42,668 nucleotides of DNA, from the NCBI GenBank assembly GCA_023512255.1, contig JAILZY010000025.1, forward strand, positions 1 to 42,668, in the 5' to 3' direction. Both the position numbers and the translations under genes were made by a program. The number at the start of each line of letters is the position of its first letter. The stretch's first letter is position 1. Positions 9,901 to 31,271 of the stretch are shown piece by piece. The notes beneath the pieces were generated by a model. The model ran no database searches. It saw only the letters and a list, made by a program, of their open reading frames with translations, and was not told the origin of the DNA. This stretch comes from a bacterium. GTDB lineage: Bacteria > SZUA-182 > DTGQ01.

Positions 9901-10736
9901 CACTCAATATCAGCTTGGTTACCTACAGGAGTTACAAAATTTTGAGGGGAAAGGTAAATATCAAACGAAGATGTAGTTACGCTATTTGCCTTGATAAACA
10001 CAGCCGTATCGGCGGAATTAGCACCAATGCCGCCTATAACCAGCTTGAGATGGTTAACTGTCCCAGGGAAAACCTCGGCCTCACATTTTAAAACCTGACT
10101 AACCCCATTTGATCGGATATCAATTAAGCCACCATTTGGTGCATAATTAACCCCATTGACGAAGAAACCAAAAGCATTACTGCTCTCACGGCTAACAGAT
10201 ATTTTATTCGCTTTAGAGCTCACTACATATTCAAAGGTCAGAATACTGCCATCAGGCACAAAGTCAAATTCCAGCACAGCCGGCAGCTCGCTCGTCTTAG
10301 CTATGTCCTGGCCAGAGGCCCTGACTGTTCCAGGTCGAGCAGGTTTGCCCAGGCTAGCGATATCCATCGTGCTGAGGATGATGCCGCTTTCAAACCCTAC
10401 AATTTTCTCTCCACCGGTAAAGATACCGCCAGAATAAGGCGATCCGCTCCATTTGACATTAGAGATAGTGATTCCTTCTCCGGCGATAGTCTCTGCCAGG
10501 ATAGTTGGATCACCTATTGCTTCCATGTCCTTAGTCGCCAACTTGCTTAATTCTCCGGTGGCAGGAGACGGCGGGGAAATGGTAGTAATGACAGGCATGG
10601 TTTTGATTGGCCCTGGCTGACTGCTTGCTGCCATCACGGGCGTATGAATTCCTAACAGGAGTAGAACAAAAGCTCCTACCAGTATGCCCGAAATCCAATA
10701 TTTCTCCATCCTTTTCCATTGCTTCAATTGCTTCAT
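6939..10736 (-). CDS. Large secreted protein: choice-of-anchor L-like domain plus HYR/Ig-like modules
   Basis: A 1265-residue exported protein. Residues 1-36 are a signal peptide (core ISGILVGAFVLLLLGI, cut near VMA-AS). Residues about 70-235 resemble the choice-of-anchor L domain (GIILST, VLEFDFVPDGSILTFEYV, AFGFFVNG). About 265-355 is an invasin/Big1-like Ig fold (GNQADIECRV, DDDGKVKWAYTTGDSG). Residues 446-767 are four 81-residue modules with paired Cys (RCKDITV, DNCGIA, TFTCDN), three nearly identical at DNA level. About 767-1050 are three HYR-type domains (PWDPPAFTDNC, TGKDKCGNETKCSFW). Another Ig-like module follows, then a unique region of about 125 residues. No C-terminal membrane anchor or LPxTG/PEP motif is visible. 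AAGGAG lies 8 bases before the ATG. Probably a surface or matrix adhesin, possibly a type II secretion substrate (inference). Confidence 0.8.
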   Translation of the reverse strand: MKQLKQWKRMEKYWISGILVGAFVLLLLGIHTPVMAASSQPGPIKTMPVITTISPPSPATGELSKLATKDMEAIGDPTILAETIAGEGITISNVKWSGSPYSGGIFTGGEKIVGFESGIILSTMDIASLGKPARPGTVRASGQDIAKTSELPAVLEFDFVPDGSILTFEYVVSSKANKISVSRESSNAFGFFVNGVNYAPNGGLIDIRSNGVSQVLKCEAEVFPGTVNHLKLVIGGIGANSADTAVFIKANSVTTSSFDIYLSPQNFVTPVGNQADIECRVKKGSAPIKDALVFIEIVEGPNQDKSSGFLSTDDDGKVKWAYTTGDSGVDKIKVTVTYNNEKGTKSTYNAWVDLEVTGDCNSLIAKVLCENNISSKKAQLTFYLNNQEVCRQDINSTIVAICDLLTPAKDGDDIKVEAAVSILPSNDQSKWLNGIIEKSSKVEDKIPPQCIAKDITVKLDASGRARISPQDVDNGSWDNCGIAKMEVFPDTFTCDDAGKEISVTLTVTDTSDNESTCPAKVTVVDSIPPEPRCKDITVQLDASGQARISPQDVDNGSWDNCGIAKMEVYPDTFTCDNIGPNDVTFIVIDTSGNPPSICPATVTVVDLIPPEARCKDITVYLDASGQVSITPSDVDDGSTDNCGIAKMEVYPDTFTCDNIGCNLVTFIVIDTSGNPPSICLPTVTVVDLIPPEARCKDITVQLDASGQVSITPSDVDDGSTDNCGIAEMKVSPDTFTCDNIGPNEVTLTVTDTSGNQSTCTATVTVNDTEAPVPPLPLPPIIVPNDPTECSAIVPWDPPAFTDNCEVTEVTCTYPDGTPFDPSKPLPAECEDSAKGTLITCIAKDSSGNPASWSRLVIVLDKEPPMVSHCVDDISTSAKDKKDGRCGAYVSWDPPRFIDNCNDVTVTVIAVYPDDSTPHSVAPGDFFPLPPGECEGKYQIIYTGKDKCGNETKCSFWITVRDEEPPKIVTPCPDDIVVNNDPGQCGAVVTWPLPIFEDNCGDLTVTCNYNPGDFFPIPPGKCEGKYLVTCTATDKCGNKAECSFWITVREVEPPKITIDPPLKPKYFSTDKLDFCYTVTDNCDPNPEVTVLLSNNGGAPVDITAPSCIPIDLSKLVGHNVITIIAKDYCGNTSKDSVKFYVVLRLVGDQIVIKDEIQKLPNGTAFDAFIKFPAPYDALTIYRAVADGAPARSINRDWTEHMAICRFRRGDVTEFPVDDYFEVTGSFKYNGIDLEFFGADYIYRVLPPPRTPTSSPRSSTSLKPSKE
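8437..9401 (-). repeat. Four tandem ~243-base coding modules
   Basis: The DNA encoding residues 446-767 of the HYR protein is four tandem modules. The segment at 8771-8820 recurs almost exactly at 9014-9063, a shift of 243 bases (81 codons), and a slightly more divergent copy lies near 8528-8577. Near-identity at synonymous sites points to recent duplication or gene conversion, so copy number may vary. Confidence 0.85.
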
Positions 10737-12768: not shown

Positions 12769-13551
12769 ATGGGACATGGCATTCATTTTCTCAGTTATGG
12801 TGAGTCGATTTTCTGGACCCTGCTTATCAGTGGGATATTAATTGTATTTTCAAAACTGGCTCTGAGCCAAAAAAATCTGGGCGTACCAGAAGGGCTTCAG
12901 AATCTAGCCGAGGGCTTGGTTGAATTTATGCTCGGCATGTTTGAGCCAGAGTTGGGCAAGAAGGTAATGCCTCTTGTCCTGCCTTTTCTCGGTGCATTTT
13001 TTCTCTTCATTCTGATCTCAAATATCTTTCTCCTCATCCCATTCGCTCAATGCCCAACCGGCGATTTAAGCACCACAGCCGCACTTGCGGTCATCTCGCT
13101 TGCTGGAGTGCATATTCTCAGTATTAAACTGAAGGGCTTCAAAAAATACGTATATGATTGGTTTAACCCCTATCCAGAGTTAACCGCAAAAGCCGAGGGT
13201 GAGGAAGAAGGAAAAGTAGGCCCGCTTAAATCTATCTTTAAGAAAATCAGTGGCTTTCTGTACTCTGGAATGATGAGAATTATTGTCTCTCTGCTGATTA
13301 TCCTCCACGTCATGGATAATTGCGCCCGGCTCTTATCTCTTTCTTTTCGACTTTTCGGTAATATCTTCGGAGAGCATACGGTATATGCCATGGTTTCACA
13401 GGTAGCCATGGGCAGTTATCGAATGGTAATTCCCCTGTTCATCCCGTTGTTAATTCTCTTATTGGATGTTTTAGCGGCTACTATTCAAACAGCCGTATTT
13501 TGCATGTTGAGCACTTTTTACCTAAAAGAGGAAGCTGCGATTCACCATTAA
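12769..13551 (+). CDS. atpB: F-type ATP synthase subunit a
   Basis: A 260-residue integral membrane subunit that forms the ion half-channels of the F0 motor next to the c ring. The conserved segment ARLLSLSFRLFGNIFGEHTV contains the essential Arg of the family (Arg194 here, equivalent to E. coli aR210) inside FRLFGN. Several hydrophobic segments are visible, with a charged insert around residues 140-155 (AKAEGEEEGKVGP). AGGAGG lies just before the ATG. It is first in the operon a-c-b-alpha-gamma-beta-epsilon. No atpI/uncI gene precedes it. Length is normal for the family. Confidence 0.95.
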   Translation: MGHGIHFLSYGESIFWTLLISGILIVFSKLALSQKNLGVPEGLQNLAEGLVEFMLGMFEPELGKKVMPLVLPFLGAFFLFILISNIFLLIPFAQCPTGDLSTTAALAVISLAGVHILSIKLKGFKKYVYDWFNPYPELTAKAEGEEEGKVGPLKSIFKKISGFLYSGMMRIIVSLLIILHVMDNCARLLSLSFRLFGNIFGEHTVYAMVSQVAMGSYRMVIPLFIPLLILLLDVLAATIQTAVFCMLSTFYLKEEAAIHH

Positions 13552-13605
13552 AAAGGGAGCAGCAATACGTCACTTTAACCTAATATTTATGGAGGTACAA
13601 CTTTT

Positions 13606-13860
13606 ATGGATAGCATGATTGTGCTGAAAATGGTTACCACCTTTAGTGCTGTAGTTGCTATTGCTATTGGAGCCCTGGGAGCTGCTATCGGTATGTCAAA
13701 AATCGGAATGGCCGCTCTGGAAGGTATTGCCAGACAACCAGAGATGGCTGGAAGAACCTTTACCACCATGCTGATCGCTATGGCTCTGATTGAAGCCTTG
13801 GCTATCTATTGTTTGCTGATCTCCTTGGTCCTTATCTTCGGTAATCCGTTCATACATTAA
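13606..13860 (+). CDS. atpE: F-type ATP synthase subunit c (proton-type)
   Basis: An 84-residue two-helix protein that builds the rotor ring. The polar loop is ARQPE (residues 42-46) and the ion-binding carboxylate is Glu63 in ALIEALAIY. Aligned on the RQP loop with the Ilyobacter tartaricus c subunit, the sodium-ligand Gln32 is Met30 here, and Ser66 and Thr67 are Ala64 and Leu65. The set of sodium ligands is therefore missing, which predicts proton coupling. The glycine-rich helix-1 motif is degenerate (GALGAAIGMSKIG), which may affect ring size. GGAGGT is 9 bases before the ATG. Confidence 0.95.
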   Translation: MDSMIVLKMVTTFSAVVAIAIGALGAAIGMSKIGMAALEGIARQPEMAGRTFTTMLIAMALIEALAIYCLLISLVLIFGNPFIH

Positions 13861-13918
13861 AAATCAGGATGTAGAAGGGGAGCCTTTTCACATCCACCTA
13901 GAATAAGGTGAATAAAAT

Positions 13919-14419
13919 ATGCTAGGGTTCAGTTTTGTTAAATTTCTCTTTAGCATAGTAAACTTTGTCGTGCTCATGGTCATCCTCAAAAAACTCTTCT
14001 TTAAGCCAATCATGAATGTCCTAGAGGAGAGGAAGGCTAAGGTAGCGGCTGAGCTGGCCAAGGCGGATGAAGCAAGAGCAGAAGTGGCCAAATTGAAAGA
14101 GAGCGGAGAGAAGATCATTCTGACAGCCAGACAAGAAGGAGAGTTGATTCTCAAAAAGGCTCGAGAGAATGCGGATCAGGTGATTGCTCAGGCTAAGGCT
14201 GAGGCAAATAATATTGTTCAGGAAGCCAAAGCCAGCATTGAGCGCGAAAAAGAGGAAATCCGCCGAGAGATGTATTCTGTATTGATCGATTTAGTCTCCT
14301 TAGCTTCCAGAAAAGTCATGTATGGATCAATTCATGAGGATTATCAGAAAGCATTAATCGAAAGTGCTGTTGGGCAGAGCCTTAAGCAGGCATATCTGCG
14401 AGGAGGAATGGCTAATTAA
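13919..14419 (+). CDS. atpF: F-type ATP synthase subunit b
   Basis: A 166-residue peripheral-stalk protein: one N-terminal membrane helix (residues about 5-28, [20 protein letters not shown]) followed by [15 protein letters not shown] and a long charged helix to near the end. Length is typical of a homodimeric b. Only one b-type gene is present, so a b2 dimer is expected. The usual atpH (delta) gene does not follow. Instead a 122-base gap leads to atpA, whose N-terminus looks delta-like, so the tip of this b would have to contact a domain of alpha (inference). Confidence 0.93.
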
Positions 14420-14442
14420 CTTTTAATTTCCGAGTAACCGAT

Positions 14443-14519
14443 CCCTGGATCACAGGATGGCCATTATTAGGGGCAGAGGCGGCGATGGTTACGGGGAACC
14501 GCCCCCTGGATCACAGGAT
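14443..14519. repeat. 16-base direct repeat around the atpA start
   Basis: CCCTGGATCACAGGAT occurs at 14443-14458 and 14504-14519. The second copy would be inside the coding region if atpA began at 14485, but both copies are untranslated if it begins at 14542. This favours the downstream start. Confidence 0.85.
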
Positions 14520-14541
14520 CGTCAAGGAAGGCTTCAAGGTT

Positions 14542-16365
14542 ATGAAAGATATTTTACAGCAGGATTTGAAAGAGGTTCTCTCTGAATGTAAATTACCGCT
14601 GGTCCTCCTCACCTCTGTTCCTCTCAATAATAATTTTGTCAGCAACCTGGAACAAAAGCTGTCTGAAATTGCGGACCGGAAAATCGAAATTCGGGTTTTT
14701 GAGGATTCGAAGCAGGAAGGAAGCGTTCTTTTCCTCACCGAAGACTTGAAAATCAACCTGGACATCCGTCATTCCTTTGCTGATTCGCTTGAGGAAAAGC
14801 TTCGGATGTTGCGGGAGGGTATTGATGTTGCCAAGGTCCAGGATGTAACCAGTCAGATCAGGCAGATTATTGAGAGCACAGAGCCGACGTTCAAAGTGGA
14901 TGATATCGGCCGCGAGGGGGTGGTTCTGGAGGTTGGAGATGGAATCGCTCGGGTTTCGGGGTTAGGAAAGGTCGGCTACAACGAGGTTGTCCAGTTTGAA
15001 AACGGCGGCTATGGCCTAGCCTTCAACCTGGAACGCAACAGTGTAGGTTGTATTTTGCTCACCCCCGAAGAGGAAATCCCTGAGGGGAGCCGAGTGGTCA
15101 GCACCGGCAAACTAATGCAGGTCCCAGTTGGCGATGGGATGATCGGACGAATCGTCAATGCTGTGGCCGTGCCTATTGATGGTAAGGGAAGGATTGAGTC
15201 CAATAAGTTTCGGCTGATTGAGCGCAAAGCTCCTGGAGTTATGCTTAGAAAATCGGTCTGCGAGCCGGTTCAGACCGGAATTAAAGCCATTGACGCTCTG
15301 GTCCCGATTGGGCGAGGCCAGCGCGAGTTGATTATTGGTGATCGAAAAATCGGCAAGACCGCTCTGGCCGTAGATACGATTATCAATCAGAAAAACTCTG
15401 ATCTAATCTGCATCTATTGTGCTATCGGACAAAAGGCAGCCGCGGTAGCCAAGGTGGTCCATGTCCTCCAGAAAGAAGGAGCCTTGAAGCACACGATTAT
15501 TGTGGCTGCTCTGTCGAATGAGCAGACTGCCTTCCGCTTCCTGGCTCCCTACACTGCCTGTGCCATTGGCGAGGAATTTATGGAGCAGGGCAGGCATGCC
15601 TTAGTCATCTACGATGATCTTTCAAAGCACGCCATGTCATATCGAGAAATGTCAGCTCTGCTCAAGCGGCCAATAGGACGTGAGGCTTATCCGGGAGATA
15701 TTTTCTATATTCACTCTCGACTCCTTGAGAGAGCAGCCAAACTGCGTGATGATTTGGGAGGAGGGTCACTAACCGCCCTCCCCATTATTGAAACCCTGGG
15801 TGGAGATGTAACTTCGTATATCTCAACCAATGTCATTTCGATTACTGATGGACAGATCTACCTCCAGAGCGAATTGTTCAATACCGGGTTTCGCCCGGCA
15901 ATCAATGTGGGGCTTTCGGTCTCCCGTGTCGGTGGTGCAGCCCAGCTCAAGGCTATGAAGCGGGTAGCTGGCCGAATGAGGGTGGATTTGTCCCAGTACC
16001 ACGAGATGGCCGCGTTCGTAAAATTCGGGGCCGAACTTGATGAGGCAACCAAGGCCCAGCTAGCCCGTGGTGAGCGTGGACGGGAGCTTCTTAAGCAGGT
16101 TCAGTATGCACCGATGCCGGTAGAGGAGCAGATCGCCATCATTTACGCGGTAGTCAATGGTTTTCTGGATGACATTCCGGTCAAGATGATGAGTGAGTTT
16201 GAAAAGGGGTTTATCACCCATATCCGTCAGAATGTTCCTGAAATATTCTCTAAGATACTTGAGCTAAAGGATATTAATCAGGAGATTGAAGGCTTGTTGA
16301 AAAAGGCGATCACGGATTTCAAGGGTATTTTTATGGCGGGTGAAAAGCCTCTCCAGGCAAAGTAG
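14542..16365 (+). CDS. atpA: F-type ATP synthase subunit alpha with N-terminal delta-like domain
   Basis: A 607-residue protein (626 if the ATG at 14485 is used). Residues about 95-600 are a normal alpha subunit: first helix near [12 protein letters not shown], beta-barrel, P-loop GDRKIGKT at 266-273 and [17 protein letters not shown] with the family's Arg-finger region nearby. The P-loop is displaced by 97 residues compared with E. coli alpha (169-176). The extra N-terminus, residues about 14-85, has the layout of the C-terminal domain of subunit delta: LVLLTSVPL, then a helix, then [19 protein letters not shown], then a [10 protein letters not shown] helix. There is no atpH gene in the operon. 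I read this as a delta(CTD)-alpha fusion that would tie the stalk directly to alpha. The alpha call is certain; the delta reading is from pattern only. Confidence 0.9.
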
Positions 16366-16399
16366 ACTGAAAGGGCTTCACAAAGGTTAGGATAGATCA

Positions 16400-17329
16400 A
16401 TGTCACAAAAGCTGATTGAGTTACGGCATCATATCCAAAGCGTTGAGAATATTAAGGCAACAACGCAAACGATGTCTACTGTTGCGGCCGCAAAGCTAGC
16501 CCGATCTCGAAACAAGGCTGCCTCGCTGCGGACCTATGCAGAAAAAATGAGAGAAATCGTTCAGGTTCAATCCTACTATATCGCTGAAATGAGCGATCGG
16601 GCGGCAGAGATTTCCCCCCTGTTCCAATCAAAGCCGGGTGAGGGGAAAACGGTTTTTGTGGTCATCGGCTCTGATATCGGCATGTGTGGAAGCTATAACG
16701 GACAGATTGGCCGACTAGCTCTAAGCAGAATAGAAGAATTGCAGGCTGAGGGGCAAGTGTGCGCTGTTTATTGCAAGGGTATCAAAAGCGAGGAGTTCTT
16801 TAGGCGGAAGACGAAAATTCCTATTATCGGCATGGAGAAATGGTCAGAGGAGGGAGTATCGATCAATGACGCCATTAACCTGCTGAGAACCATGGTCAAG
16901 CTCTTCAACCAGGAAGACATTAAGGAAATCTACTGTGCTTATACGAAATTCTATAGCCCGGTAAAACGCGAGCCTACTATTCTAAAAATGCTTCCGCTGA
17001 GCTTTGATATCCTGCCTGCTGGCAAATTTCAGGTCTTTGAGGATTGGATTTACGAGCCGGATGCCATTACCATTCTGAAAGAGCTCATTCCCACCTATTT
17101 CCGGGTTCAAGTCTTTGATATGCTGCTTGAGTCTTATGCCAGTGAGCAGGGAGCTAGGATGATGGCTATGGAAGAGGCTTCTGATCGAGCTGAGGAGACC
17201 TTGCGGGAGCTGCGAGTCGCCTACAACAAGATGAGGCGCGATTTAATCACTCTGGATCTTTTGGGCATCCTGAGTGCGGCTAATGTGATCGAAATGGAGG
17301 CGGCCAAAAAAGCCGGCGGCTTGCTATAA
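16400..17329 (+). CDS. atpG: F-type ATP synthase subunit gamma
   Basis: A 309-residue central-shaft subunit. The N-terminal helix (LRHHIQSVENIKATTQTMSTVAAAKLARS) and the C-terminal helix (YNKMRRDLITLDLLGILSAANVIE) match the coiled coil that turns inside alpha3beta3. A Rossmann-like middle region carries SDIGMCGSYNGQIG, the family's GLCGGLN-type site. Sequence is divergent from common gammas (THR/ASP for the usual ITQEI at the C-terminus). It sits between alpha and beta as in standard operons. Confidence 0.94.
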   Translation: MSQKLIELRHHIQSVENIKATTQTMSTVAAAKLARSRNKAASLRTYAEKMREIVQVQSYYIAEMSDRAAEISPLFQSKPGEGKTVFVVIGSDIGMCGSYNGQIGRLALSRIEELQAEGQVCAVYCKGIKSEEFFRRKTKIPIIGMEKWSEEGVSINDAINLLRTMVKLFNQEDIKEIYCAYTKFYSPVKREPTILKMLPLSFDILPAGKFQVFEDWIYEPDAITILKELIPTYFRVQVFDMLLESYASEQGARMMAMEEASDRAEETLRELRVAYNKMRRDLITLDLLGILSAANVIEMEAAKKAGGLL

Positions 17330-17351
17330 ACTTGTTATCTTGAGTAGCTAA

Positions 17352-19372
<2,021 letters not shown>

Positions 19373-19426
19373 CCTGAACCATTGGCAACCACCACTGGGC
19401 CTGACCGATACGAGCATTGAAAAGAT

Positions 19427-19493
19427 AACAAAAACCACAAACAGGGCCAACTACAAAATTCTTAGCGCCTTGTCTGTGGTTTTTGTTTTTTAT
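19427..19493. terminator. Two-way terminator between atpC and the M23 peptidase gene
   Basis: AACAAAAACCACA (19427-19439) pairs exactly with TGTGGTTTTTGTT (19475-19487), with further partial pairing inside (ACAGGGC / GCCTTGT). The + strand continues with TTTTATTTC. On the - strand the stem ends in GGTTTTTGTTATCTTTTC. It can end both convergent units. Confidence 0.8.
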
Positions 19494-19594
19494 TTCTAAA
19501 TATTTATTTCTAAATAATGGGCACTTTTTGTAACAATTAGCCTCAAGGGTAATTTTTTAACTCAATTTCCTTGATGCCTGCTTTTGTTACTAAC

Positions 19595-20977
19595 TCATTG
19601 CTTAGAAGCCGATGGCTGCTGCTGTGGGGGAGCAAGAATCTCCAGTTTGAGCTTAATATTGTCCCGTATCCAGTGCTCGTCCCACCATTCGATCGGATTG
19701 ACAAAGGTGCCGCCAATCAGCATAGAAAAATGCAGGTGGTCCCCTCCAGCCCAGCCGGTATCGCCAGTAGTGCCGATTTTCTGCCCACGGGTTACTTTCT
19801 GGCCACAGGAGACGGAAAAATTACTCAAATGGCTATACATGCTAAAAACATTCTGGCCATGATCAATTATAATTGTTTTGCCATAGATTCCCAAGTCCCC
19901 CTGATAGATCACTAGCCCACTGTTAGCCGCCGGTACTGGCGAGTGAGCTAATGAGGCTAAATCCACTCCAAGGTGAGTCTGCTCATCAATATGTTTCCCG
20001 CCATACAGGTAGATCCTATGATCAGCAAAGAGGGCCGAAGGCTCAGCATCTGGAAGCCGCAAGAATCTGCCTTCCCAGAGAGATTCGGGTTGAGATTTGC
20101 GGCAGATTTCCCGAATCTGCCGATGATTTTGATCCCGCCAATAATTGTTGATTCTCAAAAAAGCATCGGTTAGTGACATTCCGCTTAGGGTATCATCCAT
20201 AGAAAAAAATTGTGGAATCTTTCTTTGGAGAAAATCATCAGAGATAGTCAGAGAATCCTGACGAAATTTCTTTTTTTTCAACAGATAATAAAAGCTGACT
20301 CTGGCTTCATTGCCGGCTTCATCCCTTGAGATCAACTCTATCTTAGGAGCTGGCTGGTCATAGGGAAGGGCAAAATAGACCACACGAGCCTGGGGATAAT
20401 TAGCCGCTTTAACTGGAAATCCAGGATAGAAGGCATTATCCACCAAGACGCCATCTTTTATTGAATCATCAGAGGTCTGATAAACCACAAAGCCGGTGCC
20501 GCCCTGATTTAGATAGTGCTGAGTGCTCAAGCAGGAGAGATTAGGTGGTATACGGTCGAGAATGAATGATTGCTCAAGGAGAGAAATATTCCCGGTAAGT
20601 TTATTCCGCCAAGAATAATCGCGGGCCACAATCACCAGGGTAAGGGGGCCTTCCTTGACCTTCATGGCCGCTGGATCAAAGGGAATCTGAATAGTTCGGC
20701 GAATGATATTTTTCTTACCCCAAAGGAGGCTTCCGGGTAGCTCCTCGTTTAAGATTTCATTCTGAAGATCACGCTGCACTACCGTTACCTGGATACTCCG
20801 AAGACCACTTCCCCGATCCTCAATTTCAAAATTCAAGACCTGCGGCTTATTTAAAAATTTCGTTTTCGTACCCTGGATGATCTTTGGCCCCTCAGATTCC
20901 AGCTTTCTAATCCAAAACCAGATAAGGGCAAAGGTTAAGGAGAGAATAACCACCAGGAGCAAAATTCTTTTATTCAT
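19595..20977 (-). CDS. M23 family metallopeptidase, membrane-anchored
   Basis: A 460-residue periplasmic endopeptidase of the LytM/M23 type, expected to cut peptidoglycan peptide bridges. Residues 5-23 are a single N-terminal membrane segment (LLLVVILSLTFALIWFWI). About 35-250 is a beta-rich, Ig-like region. The peptidase domain is near residues 320-435: His335 and Asp339 in HLGVD, and His414 and His416 in GDHLHFSM form the zinc and catalytic set; YSHLSNFSVSCGQ is also conserved. The C-terminus ends in a Pro/Gln-rich tail. Close domain layouts occur in Deltaproteobacteria. It lies 170 bases after the V-ATPase D gene on the same strand and might be read through, though a dispersed repeat sits in the gap. 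Confidence 0.92.
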   Translation of the reverse strand: MNKRILLLVVILSLTFALIWFWIRKLESEGPKIIQGTKTKFLNKPQVLNFEIEDRGSGLRSIQVTVVQRDLQNEILNEELPGSLLWGKKNIIRRTIQIPFDPAAMKVKEGPLTLVIVARDYSWRNKLTGNISLLEQSFILDRIPPNLSCLSTQHYLNQGGTGFVVYQTSDDSIKDGVLVDNAFYPGFPVKAANYPQARVVYFALPYDQPAPKIELISRDEAGNEARVSFYYLLKKKKFRQDSLTISDDFLQRKIPQFFSMDDTLSGMSLTDAFLRINNYWRDQNHRQIREICRKSQPESLWEGRFLRLPDAEPSALFADHRIYLYGGKHIDEQTHLGVDLASLAHSPVPAANSGLVIYQGDLGIYGKTIIIDHGQNVFSMYSHLSNFSVSCGQKVTRGQKIGTTGDTGWAGGDHLHFSMLIGGTFVNPIEWWDEHWIRDNIKLKLEILAPPQQQPSASKQ

Positions 20978-21039
20978 GGAATCGACCTCTTAATCCAAAA
21001 TTTTTACCTCTACTAAAAACAAGCAAGAATTTGTCCTTC

Positions 21040-21107
21040 TGCATAAATCTCTCCCTGCCTTGAAATTCCTTGAAAGTTATCTTTCATAACAAACCCAGTA
21101 AAATCGC
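21040..21107 (+). repeat. Dispersed repeat family C, copy 2
   Basis: Matches 10969-11035: CTGCATAAATCTCTCCCTGCC, TTGAAATTCCTTGAAAGTTATCTTTC, AAACCCAGTAAAATCG. It lies between the V-ATPase D gene and the M23 peptidase gene. Confidence 0.85.
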
Positions 21108-21150
21108 GAGGATTAAAAGTGTAAAAGTTAATAATTCAAGAGGTAATAAT

Positions 21151-21774
21151 TTAATGTGATCGGATAATATCCTTTATTTTCATAAGGCGTGAATTGTTAG
21201 AGCGCTCGATCTCGTCAAGTTTAAGCCGGATAAATCTTACCGTCTCTTCAAGCTGCGGGATAAGGAAATATTCGAGAGCATTAACCCGTCTTCTGATCTT
21301 TCCGATTTCCTGAGCCATAAGCCTGACCGTTGCCTCAAGCTCAGCTAACTTCAAAATTTCGGGAAAAATTTCCCTCAATGAACCAAGAGCATAATCAAGC
21401 TCAAGTGGAGTATTCATTAGCCCGTAAGAGAAGGCGTCAACCTGCCCCTCAATGGTTAATTGGGGAATCAAGACATTCATAACGCTTTTCTGCGACAGGC
21501 GAATGAGCAGCTCCCCTTTAGGATAATTCAAGGCATCTTCAATGACCTCCTCTGACAGTGCACTCGCCTTGGCCAAAAGAAAGGTCTTCAATATCCTGGG
21601 CAGAAGATCGTCAACCATGATCCTCTGCTTTCGGTAAGCCTCGACCAGGGAGCTGAATTCCTTTATCAATCCTTCCAACTTATCCTTAAGAAGGTGATGA
21701 CCGCGCCTTGCAAAATCAAGTCTTTTCCGAAGGCGCAGTAAAACCATTCGGTTTGGATTCACATTGAGTCTCAT
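21151..21774 (-). CDS. ntpD: V/A-type ATPase subunit D
   Basis: A 207-residue central-shaft subunit. The family signature NVNPNRMVLLRLRKRLDFARRGHHLL opens the protein, and two long helices (residues about 5-75 and 110-200) would form the rotor coiled coil. The segment RLMAQEIGKIRRRVNALEYFLIPQL is strongly conserved in the family. It is the last V-type gene, 8 bases after subunit B, as in Enterococcus and Thermus operons. Confidence 0.95.
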   Translation of the reverse strand: MRLNVNPNRMVLLRLRKRLDFARRGHHLLKDKLEGLIKEFSSLVEAYRKQRIMVDDLLPRILKTFLLAKASALSEEVIEDALNYPKGELLIRLSQKSVMNVLIPQLTIEGQVDAFSYGLMNTPLELDYALGSLREIFPEILKLAELEATVRLMAQEIGKIRRRVNALEYFLIPQLEETVRFIRLKLDEIERSNNSRLMKIKDIIRSH

Positions 21775-21782
21775 GGTTTAAG

Positions 21783-23183
21783 CTACTCCGCCGCTACTCC
21801 AGCCTCTTGAAGGAGAGGTTTCAAAAATTCTTCTTTATAGGCATCCCGCACTCTCTTTAATTCAGCCATTGGTAGTCTGCTCAGCAGTCGCCAGCCAAGA
21901 TCCAGGGTCTGCTCAATGCTCCTGTTTTCATCCTCTCCCTGCCGAACAAAGACATCCTCAAAGGCATCGGCAAATTCTACAAACTTCAAATCAATCGGCG
22001 TCAGGGCCGATTCACCGAGAATAACGGCCAGCTCCTGAGCCTCCTTGCCTCGGGCATAGGCGGCAAACAACTGATTCAATAAATCCGAATGATCCTTCCT
22101 AGTCTTCCCCTGGCCAATACCCTTATCTTTTAATCTCGACAGCGAGGGCCGCACATCTACCGGCGGATAAATCCCTTTGCGGTGCAGCTCACGAGAGAGA
22201 AAGATCTGCCCCTCGGTAATATATCCGGTAAGATCAGGGATAGGATGGGTTTTATCATCTTCCGGCATAGTCAGAATAGGGATCTGGGTTATGGACCCCT
22301 TTTTCCCCTTGATCCTGCCTGCCCGCTCATAGATAGTGGCTAAATCCGTATATAAATATCCTGGGTATCCACGCCTGCCCGGGATCTCTTTGCGGGCAGC
22401 CGAGACCTCTCTCAGCGCTTCACAGTAGTTAGTCATATCGCTTAGAATTACCAGCACATGCATATCCAAATCAAAGGCCAGATATTCAGCACAGGTCAGG
22501 GCGCTCCTCGGAAGAGCGATTCTTTCAATTACCGGGTCATTAGCCAGGTTAATAAACAAGACCGTCTTATTGATAGCTCCAGTTCGTTTAAAATCAGCGA
22601 TAAAAAATTCCGCCTCTTCAAAGGTGATCCCCATAGCCGCAAAGACAACGGCAAACTTTTCACCCTCTTTGAGTACCCTTGCCTGCCGGGCGATCTGAGC
22701 CGCAAATTGCGGATGGGGCAAGCCAGTGCCGGAGAATATCGGCAGTTTTTGCCCCCTGACCAGGGTATTCATGCCGTCAATGGTTGAGAATCCTGTCTGA
22801 ATGAACTCATTGGGATAATCGCGAGCATAAGGGTTAATCGGACTTCCGTTAATGTCTAATTTCTTTTCAGGAATAATTTCTGGTTTTCCATCTTTCGGGT
22901 GGCCGAAAGCATCAAACACCCGGCCCAGGATATCAGGAGAGACAGGAAACTCGATGCCGTGGCCGAGAAATTTGACCCTGCATTCCTCAGGGTTCATACT
23001 GTCCGCGCCTTCAAAGACCTGAACCAAAACCTTATTTTGATGGGCCTCAAGCACCCGACCACGCCTAGTTTCCTGGCTTGGCAGCCGTATCTGTACCAGC
23101 TCACCGAATTTGACACTCTCGACTTCCTCAACCAACATCAGCGGTCCAAAGATCTGGGAGATCGTCTTATACTCTCTGCTCAA
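21783..23183 (-). CDS. ntpB: V/A-type ATPase subunit B
   Basis: A 466-residue non-catalytic nucleotide-site subunit. Typical segments: [38 protein letters not shown] (in place of a P-loop, as is normal for V-type B) and [13 protein letters not shown]-like [27 protein letters not shown]. The start codon is TTG: AAGGAG lies 7 bases upstream, and the TTGA overlaps the stop of subunit A, implying translational coupling. Length is normal. Confidence 0.95.
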
Positions 23184-24955
23184 GAGATAACTCCTTCCTT
23201 TTTTTCTTCAAGCTCTTCAAACTGCTGTTTCATTTCAATCTCTATATCCTCAAACTTAAATAATGACCTCTCGTCAATATACTTAGCCCTGGCAATCTGC
23301 TCTCTGATGGGCAGTTGGGCAATCTTCTCGAAAGCCACATTGTTCTTGATCGCCCTAGCCGCGTATTTACCAAATAGCAAGATCAGGTTCAAGATCTTAA
23401 ATTGCTTGGGATATGAGGTATAGGTATCCTCTTCCATAAAGGCATTTTGATGGAGAAAATCCTCTCTGATGGACTTGGCTACCTCCATAGTCAATTTATC
23501 TTCAGGGGAGAGAGCATCAAAACCAACCAGCCTGACGATTTCGATCAACTCGGATTCTTTTTGCAGAATCCTCATAGCTTCAATTCGATTTGATTTCCAT
23601 TTTGGATCAATCTCTCTGCCCGCGGCCAGATCAACCTCTTCATTATACAACGAGTAGCTCTTTAGCCAGTCAATGGCCGGAAAGTGTCTTCGTGAGGCAA
23701 TGGCGTCATCAAGCCCCCAGAATACCTTGGCTACCCGAAGCGTGGCTTGGACAACAGGCTCTGACAAATCTCCCCCCGGCGGTGAGACAGCACCGATAAT
23801 GCTTAAAGTAGCTGACTGATCATTTTGTCCTAGACACTTTACTCTCCCTGCCCGCTCGTAGAAGCTAGCGATTCTTGAGCTCAGGTAAGCCGGATATCCC
23901 TCCTCACCAGGCATCTCCTCAAGCCGTCCTGACATCTCTCGCATAGCCTCAGCCCACCGCGAGGTAGAGTCAGCCATAAGAGCTACATGGTAGCCCATAT
24001 CGCGGAAATACTCAGCAATGGTAATGCCGGTAAATACCGAGGCTTCCCGGGCCGCTACTGGCATATTCGAGGTATTGGCTATTAAAACCGTTCTATTCAT
24101 TAAAGAGTCGCCTGTTCTTGGATCTTTTAGCTCTGGAAATTCGATCAGAACATCGGTCATCTCGTTACCGCGCTCTCCACAACCGACAAAAATGATGATA
24201 TCAGCATCGCACCACTTGGCTAGCTGGTGCTGAACAACAGTCTTGCCGCTTCCAAACGGCCCAGGCACACAGGCAGTGCCGCCTTTGCAGAGGGGAAATA
24301 GCATATCGATTATCCTCTGCCCGGTTACCATAGGCTCTACTGGGGGAAGCTTCTGCTTTACCGGCCTTGGTTTTCTCACCGGCCACCGCTGGAGCAGATT
24401 TAACCTTTTATCACCCTCTTTGGTAGTCAGAAGGCAAACGGTCTCTTCAACCCTGAATTCTCCACTCTTAATCTCTTTTATTATCCCTTCTAGACCAAAG
24501 GGAACCATGATCTTATGTTTGACCGTTTTGGTTTCTTGAACAAATCCGATCTGATCTCCGGCCACTACCCGGTCTCCCTTTTTGACCGTCGGCTCAAAGT
24601 GCCATTTTTTATCACGAGGTATAGCCGGGCTTTCAATTCCCCTAACAATGTAGTCGCCATACTGAGACCTCAGGGCATCCAAGGGCCTTTGCACTCCATC
24701 AAAAATAGATCCTATAAGCCCTGGCCCAAGCTCAACACTAAGAGGTTCGTTCACAAGATAAACAGGGTCCCCTGGTCCGATACCGTCGGTTTCCTCATAG
24801 ACCTGAATGGAGTATAATTTTTCCCGAATTTCGATAATTTCTCCGAGCAGCTTTTTCTCACTAACCCTGGCAATCTCAAACATTCTGGCCCCCTCCAAGC
24901 CTTCGGCTACAACCAGCGGGCCAGCAACCTTAATTATTCTCCCTACTCCTCCCAT
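23180..24955 (-). CDS. ntpA: V/A-type ATPase catalytic subunit A
   Basis: A 591-residue catalytic subunit. P-loop GPFGSGKT is at residues 232-239, followed by [15 protein letters not shown] with the catalytic Glu. The non-homologous bulge typical of V/A-type A subunits is present around residues 110-190. [31 protein letters not shown] is conserved. AAGGAG is 10 bases before the ATG. It overlaps subunit F upstream by 13 bases and B downstream by 4. Confidence 0.97.
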
Positions 24956-25284
24956 GAATGGTTATCTCCTTTTGAGATCAAGTCAATTCCTACCGCCCGT
25001 TCAATGAGTTTTTTCATTTCACTAAGACTGGTATTCTGGCTCCCCTTATGGCCCGGGATAATTAAAATAATATTTAAAGCTCTTTGACTCAAACGGCTTA
25101 TTTCATCCGCTATGCTCATGGCTATGGATTCGGTGATCAAAATGATTCCATATGAGCTATCAAAAGCAAGCTCTCTCAGTTTAATCAGAGCTTCTTCAGG
25201 TTTAGTAACCGGAAAAACTTCCGCTCCCATACCTTTGAAACACAGGAGAACATCTTTTTCTCCGATGGTGGCAACTTTAGACAT
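24943..25284 (-). CDS. ntpG: V/A-type ATPase subunit F
   Basis: A 113-residue subunit F (named NtpG in Enterococcus hirae, AtpF in Thermus), which binds the D shaft. The start VATIGEKDVLLCFKGMGAEVF and the central YGIILITESIAMSI are characteristic. It overlaps subunit C by 8 bases and A by 13. The short C-terminal tail runs past the usual end. Confidence 0.9.
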   Translation of the reverse strand: MSKVATIGEKDVLLCFKGMGAEVFPVTKPEEALIKLRELAFDSSYGIILITESIAMSIADEISRLSQRALNIILIIPGHKGSQNTSLSEMKKLIERAVGIDLISKGDNHSWEE

Positions 25285-26320
25285 ACCCTTGTCTCACCTT
25301 GGCCCTGATCACATCCTCTGTCAAGTGATTAAGCTTGGCGATGATAATGATCTTGAGATTTAAGATTTCTATCCAAAAAGCCGCCGTATAGGCAAAGGCG
25401 ACCTCTATCCCAAATGGAATATATTTTGCTCTCCTAAGAATATCCATCAAAAAATCATCGCTTCTTTTTTCAAGCCCTGAAGCCGAGGCCGAAACAGCCC
25501 CTTTTCGATAAGGCGCTGCCGCATCCTCCTCAAGAAAAATATCCTGATATCCGAACTCAGACAGCATGGCCGGCCAAATATTGGCAGGCGCCTCATAGAG
25601 CTTGTTTATAACCTCTAGGGTCAAGGCAGATTGGGGAGGAATAAAAAGAACCTCAGAAATCAGGCTGGCAGGAGCCCCAAGAGCCTTAAGCCGCCAGAGC
25701 GCGGCCAGGTTTTTCAATTCCAAAAAAGCTTGAGTGTATCTGCGGATCAGGTCATTCGATGAGGCCTCGGCCATCTTATAGACAATGGCCAACATCTTGC
25801 GGTCTGCCTCAAAATCAACAACCTGCAATGACTTTTTCTCCCTCCAGGCCCGGATTATCTGCCGATAGGCCTCAAGGTATTCTTGGATAATTTCACCCTG
25901 CTCAGAGCAGAGGCTATCTCTGTGCTCTTTCTCTAGTTCTAACTCGCTTGGCTCTTCTGCCTCCTGTTGCGGAAGTTTGCTAAGATAAGACTTTATCCTA
26001 GACTTAAGATGCTGAATATCCCCTCTTACCTTGAAATAATCAGCCACCAGAGGCTGGGGAGAGTATTTCCTAATCCAGGTGAGCTTGGCTGCCAGCTGAC
26101 TATTTAGGATCCTCTCATAGTCAAAGAGGTCCTCCTCCTGACGAAAAGCAGATTTGTAGGCAGAATCAGACAAAAATCGCAGCAGCTCCTTGGGGTCTTT
26201 GGCCAGGATGAGGGTCTGATACTGATTGCGGGAAATGAGCTCTTTCTCCAAGGCCTTGATTCGGCCTGAGAGATAGGTCCATTTTGTTCCTTCTTGAGCC
26301 TTTTGAGCTAAGGATATCAT
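25277..26320 (-). CDS. ntpC: V/A-type ATPase subunit C (AC39 family)
   Basis: A 347-residue, mostly helical protein of the archaeal/vacuolar C (d) family, which joins the central shaft to the K ring. Conserved features include YLSGRIKALEKELISRNQYQTLILAKDPKE at the start and the GIEVAFAYTAAFWIEILNLKIIIIAKLNHL stretch near the end. The gene lies between E and F in the standard order. The Shine-Dalgarno is weak. Confidence 0.93.
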   Translation of the reverse strand: MISLAQKAQEGTKWTYLSGRIKALEKELISRNQYQTLILAKDPKELLRFLSDSAYKSAFRQEEDLFDYERILNSQLAAKLTWIRKYSPQPLVADYFKVRGDIQHLKSRIKSYLSKLPQQEAEEPSELELEKEHRDSLCSEQGEIIQEYLEAYRQIIRAWREKKSLQVVDFEADRKMLAIVYKMAEASSNDLIRRYTQAFLELKNLAALWRLKALGAPASLISEVLFIPPQSALTLEVINKLYEAPANIWPAMLSEFGYQDIFLEEDAAAPYRKGAVSASASGLEKRSDDFLMDILRRAKYIPFGIEVAFAYTAAFWIEILNLKIIIIAKLNHLTEDVIRAKVRQGYV

Positions 26321-26368
26321 AGGGTTGAACCTGATTTGTTTGCTTGGCTTTTTTTGAAAAATAACAGC

Positions 26369-26953
26369 TTAAAACAGCACTCGGGAGATTGCGGGCGTTA
26401 ATTCCTCTTTTTTATCAGCTATGATCTGCCGGAGAGAGCAATCTATTTCCGCCTTTTCTCCCCGAAGAATAAAACCACCCTCGATCTCAGGAGAGGTTAC
26501 AATTTTTATCTTGAGGTCATTTTTCTGCATCTTTTTTAGCATGCTCTCAATCCACTGCCGGCTGATCCTCTGCTGATCTCTTTGGCTGATAATCAGGGTA
26601 TCCACCCCAGGGCAGAGATTTTTCGAAAGGTAGTGAGCAATAATCTCGAGGTATTTTTTATCCTCAAGCTTCAATATCCTTTCAATTGCCCGATCAAATA
26701 CCTCATCAATCAACTGATTCTTCAACCGGAGCACCTCAGCGCTTGTAGTGGCCCGGTATTCGCTAATAATCCGCTCTTCCTCAAGAGCCAAGGTCTTTTT
26801 TTCATTTTCTATTTCCTCTTCAAATCGCGCCTTGGCAATTTTTTCCGCCTCCTGCCGCAACGCAGCAGCCCTTTCCTCAGCTTCCTTGATGATCCGGCCT
26901 GCCTCACCTTCTGCCTCTTCTAATATCTTTTGTCGTATCTTCTCAAGGCTCAC
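26369..26953 (-). CDS. ntpE: V/A-type ATPase subunit E
   Basis: A 194-residue peripheral-stalk subunit. The N-terminal half (residues 1-75) is a charged helix (KIRQKILEEAEGEAGRIIKEAEERAAAL). The C-terminal half is a mixed globular domain with EIEGGFILRGEKAEIDCSLR, conserved in the family. The start codon is GTG, with AAGGAAA 6 bases upstream. About 100 bases of AT-rich DNA separate it from subunit K. Confidence 0.93.
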   Translation of the reverse strand: MSLEKIRQKILEEAEGEAGRIIKEAEERAAALRQEAEKIAKARFEEEIENEKKTLALEEERIISEYRATTSAEVLRLKNQLIDEVFDRAIERILKLEDKKYLEIIAHYLSKNLCPGVDTLIISQRDQQRISRQWIESMLKKMQKNDLKIKIVTSPEIEGGFILRGEKAEIDCSLRQIIADKKEELTPAISRVLF

Positions 26954-26974
26954 GGTTTGTTTCCTTGTATTTTT

Positions 26975-27053
26975 ATGTTCTTCTATTATTAGAATATTAG
27001 AATATTATAATATTGTTAATTATTATATTAAGATTATGTCTAATGGCATTATG
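26975..27053 (-). other. AT-rich gap between subunits K and E
   Basis: A run of imperfect AATATT palindromes (26988-27030). In an operon whose other downstream genes overlap or nearly touch, this gap could hold a processing or attenuation site that lets the rotor subunit K be made in excess. That role is inference. Confidence 0.35.
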
Positions 27054-27569
27054 TTAAAATTTTGTCCCCGTAACCCAGATCAATAACAAGATATTGGCCA
27101 GAAGAGCTACTACGGCATAAGTTTCGACCAGGGCTGGAATAAGAATGGCTTTCCCTGCCTCAGTCGGCTGTTTGGCGACCATATTAGTGGCTACAGCCGA
27201 GGCCTTTCCCTGATAGATGGCGCTCATCAATTCTACAATCCCAGTGCCAAGGCCTAAAAAGAAGATCACTAGCCCCTGGGTAGGTGAGATGGTTATCTGT
27301 CCGGCTATCAATCCACTGCGCAAGGCAGCCATAATCGCGCAGATAAATCCATAAAATCCCTGGGTCCCTGGCAAGGCCATGATAACCAACAATTGCCCAA
27401 ATAATTCTGGTTTCTCAGACAGCACTCCCCCAGCCTGACTGCCAGCGATCAGAATGCCTCTAGCCGAACCTAAACCACCCAAGGCGAAAACCAACACTGC
27501 CCCCATAGCTGCCAAACCAGCTCCTGTCTGAACAAAATAAAAATTCAGCATCTGTTGCCATGCACTCAT
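27054..27569 (-). CDS. ntpK: V-type ATPase subunit K (rotor), sodium-site type
   Basis: A 171-residue duplicated rotor subunit with four membrane helices (two hairpins). The residues that bind sodium in Enterococcus hirae NtpK (Leu61, Thr64, Gln65, Gln110, Glu139) are all present at matching places: Leu66, Thr69 and Gln70 in ALPGTQGFYGF, Gln120 in AIYQGKA and Glu149 in PALVETYAVV. The first hairpin has no carboxylate, as in NtpK. This predicts a sodium-coupled enzyme. GGGAGG lies 11 bases before the ATG. It is flanked by gaps of 100 and 156 bases, unlike its neighbours. Confidence 0.95.
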   Translation of the reverse strand: MSAWQQMLNFYFVQTGAGLAAMGAVLVFALGGLGSARGILIAGSQAGGVLSEKPELFGQLLVIMALPGTQGFYGFICAIMAALRSGLIAGQITISPTQGLVIFFLGLGTGIVELMSAIYQGKASAVATNMVAKQPTEAGKAILIPALVETYAVVALLANILLLIWVTGTKF

Positions 27570-27725
27570 CTTTTTTTCATCCTCCCTTTAACCCAAATTA
27601 GAGATTGTTAAGATCGTTATAACCTCAAGGTATTGACAAGTATTGAATTTTAAAGCTGGTTAATTAATTGAATAGCGAGCGATAAACTCTATTTTTTAGG
27701 GTAAATTCAACTTGTTACCGTAAGT

Positions 27726-29804
27726 TCAAGATTCCTCAGAGCAAAGCTTTGGACAATAACAACCTTCACATGAAGAAGCATTAGCGGTTTCGATAATCTC
27801 TAAGGCGTTATATTCATTAGAAAAGGCTCGAAAGGGAGTTCCGCCGCTATCATAGAACCTTCCGAAAAACTCCAGAAGGGTTAGTCTAGCCGGATGGATA
27901 AAGGCTCCAAGAACATTCATGATAAAATTGAACACATGGCCTAAGATGAGAATAGCCGCGATCATACATGGCCAGACCACAGGAATTTTAAATAAAAAGG
28001 CGATAATATTGAAAGCCATGCCGACAATGGTAGTGGTCAATCCAAGGGCCAAAAGCCGGGAGTAGGAGAGGCAATCTCCAACAAATCCGGCTAAACCATA
28101 GCTGCCCACAATACCATACAAACTGGCTACTCCGGTCAAAAATTTGGCTAGCAGCAGCTCCTCACCCCGCCCCTGAGTCAAGACCAGACCAGATGCCCCA
28201 CCGATGAAAAGGACAAGCCCTATTTTATAAAGCAGGGGATTCACCACGGTAAAAAGCGAAGAAATAAGAATTATAGCCCCGCCAAGATAGGGATACCAGA
28301 GGAAGCCATCAAATATGGCATTTTTGATATTCCTTTGCCGAATTTCCTTGACTATTTTTAGAAAAATACCGTAGAACTGGTTCAGGACGCCGATAAAAAT
28401 AGCTACCACCAGGGCAATAAGCGGCTTTTCCATCGGATCTAGAATCACCAAGCTATTCCTTAGGATAAGAAGAGGATTAGAGGGAGAAAGATATTTGGCT
28501 GAGACTAGGTCCCCAGCCCAAGCTCCGGTTATCAGGCCGAAAAAGGTAGTTGAGATGCCTGCATATAAGAAAAGCCGTAAGAATCTAACCAGTCGTTTCT
28601 CAGCTTTATATTTCCTCATCAGAAAGGCGCAAAGGCTGACCAGCATAATTCCATATAGGACATCCCCAAGGCAGATGCCAAAAAAAGCCAGAAAGGTCCA
28701 AAAGATAAAGGGGGTGGGATCAAGGGAAAAATAGCTTGGATAGCCAAACATCTCAACCAGGAGCTCAACTGGCTTAAAAATCCAATTATTTTTTAACCTG
28801 ACCGGAACATTATCCGAGGCTTCAGGTGGAGAAAGGGTGCAGCTTATATCTTGACTAAACCGAGCCTCTAGCTCCCTAGCTAATCCTTCAGCTTCTTGAG
28901 CTGAGACAAAGCCTTCCAGCATCACCGTATGCGGTGTTTGTAAAAAATTCTTCTGGACCTCATGAAAAGATTTTTTATTCTTATACTCTTCCAGTAAAAT
29001 CTTGATGTATACCTTATACCTGAGAAATTCTCCAATCTGGCCAAGGATCTTTTCCTTTTCCCCTTTTAGCCTTACTAACTCTTCCCGCAATTGCTGGCAT
29101 CTGCCGCCTATGGTAGTAGTTAGCGGCGGAAGTAGTGCCGGAAGAAAATGACAAGCAGCGAGAAGGTCATTGATCTGCTCTTTTATCTCCTTTAGCCCAA
29201 TAATTAGAATCAAACGCCAAGATTTATCCTCTGAGAGAATTTCAAGGTGCAGATCATCAAGATATTGTTCTGCCTGGCTTAAAAATATTTCATAATCACG
29301 AGGGGGTATTTTCCCCAGCAAGGCGAATGTCTTTTTGCTCTCTTTGATCAGAGCAGGCGGGAAGGAGAGGCCAGCATACGGCTCAAGCTCTGCTAGCTCA
29401 TGGGCAATATCACCTTCTCTTTTATTTATCTCCTCAAAACGCTGGTCAAGAGCCCTAATTTGCTGATGTAATTCCTCAATCTCAAGTCTACGTGCTTCCT
29501 CAACCTCCGATCGAGTGGCAAAAGTGGTCAAGGTAGTGGTGAACAGAGAGACAAAGCCTTTCTTCTCAGGGAAGAATTTATTAAAAAAATCGATCATCGA
29601 GTTCAATTGAACGATTCTCTTATTAAATTCAGTAGTATCAACCGTGATAAGGTATTTTTCATAGCCGCTGTTTTCTTCAAGCCTCAGACATGGCCTTAAG
29701 TCGACGATATGCAAGACGCCTTTTCCCATTAAGAAAGAACGAAGCTCTTCTTCCCTGCTCTTTAAGCATATCATGGATACTTTAGTCATCTTCTCGATAG
29801 CCAT
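27726..29804 (-). CDS. ntpI: V-type ATPase subunit I (a-type membrane subunit)
   Basis: A 692-residue protein. Residues 1-330 are the cytoplasmic stalk-binding half with long helices (residues about 95-140 and 225-290). Residues about 355-665 carry the membrane half. The essential Arg is Arg583 in LSYSRLLALGL. FWTFLAFFGICLGDVLYGI and LLEFFGRFYDSGGTPF are family hallmarks. Unusual: the protein ends in a Cys cluster CEGCYCPKLC (C-x2-C-x-C-x3-C), which I do not know from other I subunits and which could bind metal or form disulfides. Confidence 0.95.
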   Translation of the reverse strand: MAIEKMTKVSMICLKSREEELRSFLMGKGVLHIVDLRPCLRLEENSGYEKYLITVDTTEFNKRIVQLNSMIDFFNKFFPEKKGFVSLFTTTLTTFATRSEVEEARRLEIEELHQQIRALDQRFEEINKREGDIAHELAELEPYAGLSFPPALIKESKKTFALLGKIPPRDYEIFLSQAEQYLDDLHLEILSEDKSWRLILIIGLKEIKEQINDLLAACHFLPALLPPLTTTIGGRCQQLREELVRLKGEKEKILGQIGEFLRYKVYIKILLEEYKNKKSFHEVQKNFLQTPHTVMLEGFVSAQEAEGLARELEARFSQDISCTLSPPEASDNVPVRLKNNWIFKPVELLVEMFGYPSYFSLDPTPFIFWTFLAFFGICLGDVLYGIMLVSLCAFLMRKYKAEKRLVRFLRLFLYAGISTTFFGLITGAWAGDLVSAKYLSPSNPLLILRNSLVILDPMEKPLIALVVAIFIGVLNQFYGIFLKIVKEIRQRNIKNAIFDGFLWYPYLGGAIILISSLFTVVNPLLYKIGLVLFIGGASGLVLTQGRGEELLLAKFLTGVASLYGIVGSYGLAGFVGDCLSYSRLLALGLTTTIVGMAFNIIAFLFKIPVVWPCMIAAILILGHVFNFIMNVLGAFIHPARLTLLEFFGRFYDSGGTPFRAFSNEYNALEIIETANASSCEGCYCPKLCSEES

Positions 29805-29820
29805 AGCTCATCTGTCCTAA

Positions 29821-30126
29821 TTAATTTAGTATATTATTGATCACTACCTCAATCGCTTTCTCCATCCTGGTGAAGGCATCTGTCTTGAGCTTTTTTAAAA
29901 TATCCTCCCTTCTCTTAGCTTCTTCTTTGCCCAAGGTTGCAATCCTCTCTTCCCACTGAGCTTTTATAGCCTTTTTCTCCCTAGCAATCCTATCCTCAAA
30001 TTCCCTCTCAATGGCCTTTCTCTTCTCTTCCTGTGCCTCTAATAAGTCAGAGGCCATTTTTTGGGCCTTCTGGATAATATTATCTGCCTCTTTTTCAAAA
30101 TCCAGTACTTTTTCTAAGGTATTCAT
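29821..30126 (-). CDS. V/A-type ATPase stalk subunit H/G
   Basis: A 101-residue, almost wholly helical charged protein (EKEADNIIQKAQKMASDLLEAQEEKR...), matching the small coiled-coil subunit that pairs with E in the peripheral stalk (NtpF in Enterococcus, AtpG in Thermus, AhaH in methanogens). Names differ between species, so no symbol is given. It is the first gene of the operon, 16 bases before subunit I. The Shine-Dalgarno is poor. Confidence 0.88.
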   Translation of the reverse strand: MNTLEKVLDFEKEADNIIQKAQKMASDLLEAQEEKRKAIEREFEDRIAREKKAIKAQWEERIATLGKEEAKRREDILKKLKTDAFTRMEKAIEVVINNILN

Positions 30127-30500: not shown

Positions 30501-31271
30501 TTATAAGTAATGCTTAATTTTTTCATGATCTTCAAGTCTTTCAGCGATCATGTCTACCTTGGCTTCAACCCTACATATATCATCCCTGAGCCCTTTTACT
30601 TCCGTGTCTATCTTCTCTCTAAGCCCTTTTACTTCCGTGTCTATCTTATTATCCAACTGTTTTGCGGTCTCATCTATCTTCTTGTCCAATCGCTTTGCAG
30701 TCTCATCTATCTTATTATCCAGCTGCTTTGCGGTCTCGTCTATCTTCTTGTCCAATCGCTTTGCAGTCTCGTCTATCTTCTTATCCAGCTGTTTTGCGGT
30801 CTCGTCTATCTTCTTGTCCAATCGCTTTGCAGTCTCGTCTATCTTCTTATCCAGCTGCTTTGCGGTCTCGTCTATCTTCTTGTCCAACCGCTTTGCAGTC
30901 TCATCTATCTTATTATCCAGCTGCTTTGCGGTCTCGTCTATCTTCTTGTCCAACCGCTTTGCAGTCTCGTCTATCTTCTTATCCAGCTGCTTGGCAGTTT
31001 CATCTATCTTCTTGTCCAATCGCTTTGCAGTCTCGTCTATCTTCTTATCTAACTGTTTATGCATCGTAAACATCATAGTCTGAGTTTCATCAATCTTTTT
31101 ATCCAGCTCATCTGTCCTCCTTTCTAATCTTTCACTAAGAGAGGCTACTCCTTCGGCTACAATTTGAACCTTCCCTATGAGATCTTCTGCGATAATGTGA
31201 AATTGATTCACAATATCTTTCTGAAAATGTTCAAGCCTTTTTTCAATAAACTCTTTCGTTTCATCATCCAT
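30501..31271 (-). CDS. Hendecad-repeat coiled-coil protein
   Basis: A 256-residue protein with no known enzyme motif. Residues 1-73 are helical and acidic/amphipathic. From residue 74 come twelve almost perfect 11-residue units LDKKIDETAK(R/Q), then two divergent units (LDNKIDTEVKG, LREKIDTEVKG), then a charged helical end. Residue 11 of each unit alternates Arg and Gln, so the real unit is 22 residues. An 11-residue period fits a hendecad coiled coil, i.e. a long straight rod. There is no signal peptide or membrane segment, so it is probably cytoplasmic. AGGAGAAGGT precedes the ATG. It lies 61 bases after gspF on the same strand and may be part of that operon. The repeat makes long false open frames on the other strand. 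Confidence 0.8.
   Translation of the reverse strand: MDDETKEFIEKRLEHFQKDIVNQFHIIAEDLIGKVQIVAEGVASLSERLERRTDELDKKIDETQTMMFTMHKQLDKKIDETAKRLDKKIDETAKQLDKKIDETAKRLDKKIDETAKQLDNKIDETAKRLDKKIDETAKQLDKKIDETAKRLDKKIDETAKQLDKKIDETAKRLDKKIDETAKQLDNKIDETAKRLDKKIDETAKQLDNKIDTEVKGLREKIDTEVKGLRDDICRVEAKVDMIAERLEDHEKIKHYL
30591..31052 (-). repeat. 33/66-base coding tandem repeat
   Basis: Fourteen 33-base units encode the hendecads. Units alternate in sequence, giving a 66-base higher-order period; several 66-base units are nearly identical, including synonymous positions. Copy number is likely to vary by slippage or recombination, and short-read assembly may have miscounted it. Confidence 0.9.

Follow-up and report, generated by a model that had tools for sequence, protein, structure and literature searches.

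The sequence analyzed here (the window) is a stretch of 42,668 nucleotides, positions 1 to 42,668 of the forward strand of contig JAILZY010000025.1 (assembly GCA_023512255.1), from a bacterium of the GTDB lineage SZUA-182; DTGQ01. A complete V-type ATPase operon of nine genes runs on the minus strand from position 30126 down to 21151, in the order G/H-like, I, K, E, C, F, A, B, and D. The gene that heads the operon encodes a peripheral-stalk G/H-like subunit (29821 to 30126), assigned from this position and from matches to V-ATPase_G that were weak and below the cut-off (E = 0.012). Subunit I, the stator a subunit (27726 to 29804), matched Enterococcus hirae NtpI (8wci_P) at E = 4.6e-53, compared to an E value of ~1e-8 for the Thermus enzyme. 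The rotor subunit K follows as the third gene (27054 to 27569), and thereafter come subunit E (26369 to 26953; PF01991, E = 5.2e-16), subunit C (d, AC39; 25277 to 26320; PF01992, E = 1.8e-42), the rotor shaft subunit F (24943 to 25284; PF01990, E = 1.2e-19), the catalytic subunit A (23180 to 24955; NF003220, 885 bits with a cut-off of 470), subunit B (21783 to 23183; NF003235, 774 bits with a cut-off of 349), and the rotor shaft subunit D (21151 to 21774; PF01813, E = 1.4e-48).

An F-type ATPase operon lies on the plus strand at 12769 to 19372, such that the two operons converge within 12769 to 30126, with a gene for an M23-like peptidase between them. The convergent layout is kept in the other genome of the genus (L150), with one extra open reading frame inserted. 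The F-type alpha subunit (14485 to 16365, plus strand) carries an N-terminal extension of ~110 amino acids with similarity to the delta-subunit C-terminal domain (hhalign P 0.0018). The structural model of the extension was of low confidence (pLDDT 65), and its top PDB folds were largely delta/OSCP subunits (best E 6e-3). The window's F-type operon lacks a separate delta gene, and a BLASTP comparison of the extension with the delta subunit encoded elsewhere in the genome gave no match. Four relatives from the same order retain the extension, whereas it was not detected in four other relatives from the class, and a literature search found no report of a delta-alpha fusion. In a genome of the same order (G027), the F-type a subunit (L174, 187 to 1467) is 426 amino acids long, compared to 260 in the window, with an apparent internal repeat or insertion. 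The window also encodes a coiled-coil protein with 11-residue repeats (DKKIDETAKQL) on the minus strand at 30501 to 31271, within which lies an array of 33/66-base tandem repeats (30639 to 31063); a shorter relative of this protein adjoins a second V-type operon on another contig of the genome (C57; L006, 1953 to 2390). Finally, a gene at 6939 to 10736 (minus strand) encodes a surface-type protein of 1265 amino acids with repeated HYR-like domains and a 243-base repeat present in 3.9 copies.

A preliminary description had placed a V-type rotor subunit at 27054 to 27569, and while the positions were right, the strand was missing: the K gene is the complement of this interval, starts with ATG, and encodes 171 amino acids. 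A plus-strand reading of the interval was rejected because of its many stops, and no inverted repeats were found flanking the gene. K is an NtpK-type rotor subunit, with two hairpins and one carboxylate per subunit. When K was compared by phmmer with all PDB chains, the sole distinct sequence matched was that of E. hirae K (2bl2_A; E = 5.6e-21, residues 8 to 164), and the alignment was ungapped inside the ligand-bearing helices. Moreover, K scored 140.7 bits against the NCBIfam family NF005124, V-type ATP synthase subunit K, which exceeds the cut-off of 127 and indicates that the match to NtpK reflects homology rather than chance.

The translation places Leu, Thr, Gln, Gln, and Glu at residues 66, 69, 70, 120, and 149, respectively. 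MAFFT alignment paired Leu66, Thr69, Gln70, Gln120, and Glu149 one-to-one with the five sodium-ligand positions of E. hirae NtpK (Leu61, Thr64, Gln65, Gln110, and Glu139), as claimed at the outset, and the claimed Gln-to-Glu spacing of 29 was likewise the same in both proteins (120 to 149 and 110 to 139). The predicted Na+ site is encoded on the minus strand by the Leu66-Pro-Gly-Thr69-Gln70 codons (27360 to 27374; aligned to NtpK 61 to 65), which supply the ligands of the second transmembrane helix (TM2), the codon for the TM3 ligand Gln120 (27210 to 27212), and the codon for the TM4 carboxylate ligand Glu149 (27123 to 27125). Glu149 is the only carboxylate of the site, and because TM2 carries Gln70 and no carboxylate, the expected stoichiometry is that of E. 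hirae, one ion for every four helices. In addition, Tyr73 aligned with NtpK Tyr68, the tyrosine that stabilizes the ligand glutamate. Leu66 aligned with NtpK Leu61 as described but is weak evidence for a ligand, both because the E. hirae ligand is a backbone carbonyl (PMC2359735) and because 7 of 80 K relatives among the matches listed have Met or Ile there.

An AlphaFold2 model of K, built on an alignment of 47 sequences, had a pLDDT of 95.7 and contained helices at residues 17 to 52, 54 to 85, 96 to 133, and 143 to 167. The closest solved structure was 2bl2_A (TM score 0.82 by query and 0.89 by target, rmsd 2.1 Å, 34% identity), and the next PDB matches by fold were eukaryotic proton V-ATPase c subunits at ~20% identity. 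Within one protomer of the model, residues 66, 69, and 70 are on TM2, residue 120 is on TM3, and residue 149 is on TM4, as in NtpK, and from the alignment and the fold the ligand side chains would be expected to meet at one site. We conclude that the original description of K as having a full NtpK-like sodium-ligand set was borne out by alignment, family assignment, and predicted fold.

At least 80 related K loci were found when 84,980 species genomes were scanned. Among the matches listed, Thr69, Gln70, and Gln120 were kept in 80 of 80 K sequences and Glu149 was kept in all 79 that cover the position, the remaining one being a contig fragment that ends before the Glu. The same four residues were invariant in the 47-sequence alignment used for modeling, and inspection of the printed sequences found the ligand set in the K genes of all eight relatives from the same phylum. 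The nearest K genes among the matches listed were those of Brocadiia and Auribacterota, and the K subunits of Brocadiia (the anammox group), Auribacterota, and Caldisericota among those matches were ~43 to 69% identical to the window's K, with the same side-chain ligands. A 2008 paper had already described the Na+ ligand set and what it signifies (PMC2359735). Because each relative examined has the same side-chain set, we conclude from these sequences that the ligand set is a family-wide trait, real yet expected and not distinctive here, and not a discovery.

Most probably, K is an NtpK-type proteolipid in a bacterial V-type (V/A) ATPase that works as an ATP-driven Na+ pump, with one Na+ bound by each four-helix subunit. 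By analogy, ~10 K subunits would form a ring, and ATP hydrolysis by A3B3 would rotate the ring, together with the D/F shaft, relative to subunit I. Subunit I Arg583 and Arg640 correspond to NtpI Arg573 and Arg629 when counted along the alignment, such that both channel arginines are kept, and NtpI Arg573 was reported to be crucial for Na+ translocation (PMC6199243). Between two half-channels, Arg583 would drive the ion off Glu149, and Na+ would be pumped out of the cell; for a ten-subunit ring this would amount to ~3.3 Na+ per ATP. The analysis shows the sequence match, family, fold, complete operon, and arginines; which ion occupies the site, how large the ring is, in which direction it works, and which ion it couples in vivo are inferred. 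The Na+ pump reading is supported by the complete operon, the ligand-by-ligand alignment with NtpK, the Tyr73 match, 2bl2 as both the sole PDB sequence match and the best fold match, and a subunit I with conserved arginines that is far nearer to NtpI of the Na+-pumping E. hirae enzyme than to that of Thermus. Also consistent with a Na+ pump, the other three rotor subunits of the genome lack the set, and the genome carries two Rnf clusters. Rnf complexes often pump Na+ but can also be H+ coupled, which counts against the Na+ reading.

The full ligand set predicts Na+ binding and not exclusive Na+ coupling. One alternative is that the ring keeps ancestral Na+ ligands but uses protons, or both ions, either in a low-Na+ habitat or with an H+-selective site. 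Consistent with proton use, a Burkholderia N-type ring predicted from sequence to bind Na+ was mainly H+ selective when measured (PMC5376962), and all rings characterized so far are reported to be intrinsically H+ selective, such that coupling depends on a large Na+ excess (PMC3692424). The nearest measured homolog, however, is E. hirae K, which shares all four side chains with the window's K and is reported as almost nonselective between H+ and Na+ (PMC3692424), and the side-chain set of K is conserved without exception among the relatives examined, as selection for Na+ binding would give. We regard proton use as unlikely. Also counted against a Na+ pump, the V-ATPase cluster of the anammox bacterium Kuenenia was barely expressed (PMC2936114).

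The enzyme could instead be mainly a Na+-driven ATP synthase, a reading that we consider slightly less probable than proton use. The two Rnf clusters could supply the Na+ gradient, and bacterial V/A-ATPases can run in both directions. A pump is favored over a synthase by the single carboxylate per four-helix subunit, which keeps the ion-to-ATP ratio low, as is seen in ATP-driven pumps, and by the three other rotary ATPases of the genome, which could make ATP. Last, chance or misalignment as the source of the NtpK match is refuted to near certainty: the homology, the ungapped alignment about each ligand, and the invariance of the ligands across the 47 aligned relatives all stand against it, and no evidence emerged in its favor. 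To give a sense of scale, multiplying the residue frequencies of Thr, Gln, Gln, and Glu for four fixed positions gives ~6e-6.

The genome (3.83 Mb, 96.6% complete) carries four rotary ATPase gene sets: the F-type and V-type operons of the window, a second V/A-type operon on C57, and a canonical F-type operon on C77 that has its own delta. When the rotor subunits were aligned, Met, Val, or Ile replaced the conserved Gln in the other three, with Ala or Gly after the Glu, and K alone had the full Na+ set. The second V/A-type ATPase belongs to the same superfamily, and its catalytic A subunit is ~50% identical to that of the window, but unlike K its c subunit has a single hairpin and lacks the Na+ ligand set. 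A membrane pyrophosphatase is also encoded. This gene content fits a Na+ circuit alongside a H+ circuit in the cell and does not prove it. Four rotary ATPases, a lone Na+ site among them, and a neighboring F-type alpha subunit with a delta-like N-terminal domain are more unusual than K.

Judged by the relatives in the genome set, the phylum is small: one other genome belongs to the same genus, two more to the family, one to the order, and four to the class; beyond these, relatedness is at the domain level only. In a tree of the catalytic A subunit, the window and its genus mate grouped with Brocadiia, Auribacterota, and Hydrogenedentota (98/95). A separate clade (100/100) comprised two genomes from the family, one from the order, and one from the class. 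Possibly, the V-type operon of the genus (21151 to 30126) was laterally transferred or replaced, which would give the observed A-subunit tree; the split may also stem from paralogy. An rpoB tree, some forks of which were unresolved, placed the genome outside Planctomycetota and not with Auribacterota. The best database matches pointed to an anammox host, but this was unsupported, as rpoB did not group with Planctomycetota and the hydrazine synthase alpha subunit was not found in the genome. The same search found that subunit in four of six Planctomycetota genomes and missed it in two, one of them titled Brocadia, such that its absence is not proof. We tentatively propose, at somewhat less than an even chance, that a single locus pairs a convergent F-type ATPase (with H+ as its predicted ion and an alpha subunit that carries a fused delta-like domain) with a V-type ATPase (with Na+ as its predicted ion), that the V-type operon of the genus comes from a lineage other than that of its family, and that separate H+ and Na+ circuits operate in a cell with four rotary ATPases.

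The analysis adds a predicted Na+-pumping V-ATPase for an uncultured bacterial lineage. If the ion assignment holds, each cell would combine a single Na+ rotor with three rotors that lack the Na+ set, a useful and unsurprising case for Na+/H+ bioenergetics. Anammox Kuenenia likewise has four rotary ATPase clusters, one of which is V-type (PMC2936114). Among the closest known systems is the Na+-V-ATPase of E. hirae (2BL2, 8WCI), which shares with the window's enzyme the five ligand positions, the stabilizing tyrosine, the two-hairpin fold with one carboxylate, the subunit I arginines, and a nine-subunit operon. K differs from NtpK in that it comes from a different phylum, is known from sequence, is 34% identical in the fold alignment, and has a longer loop between TM2 and TM3, with 171 residues compared to 156.
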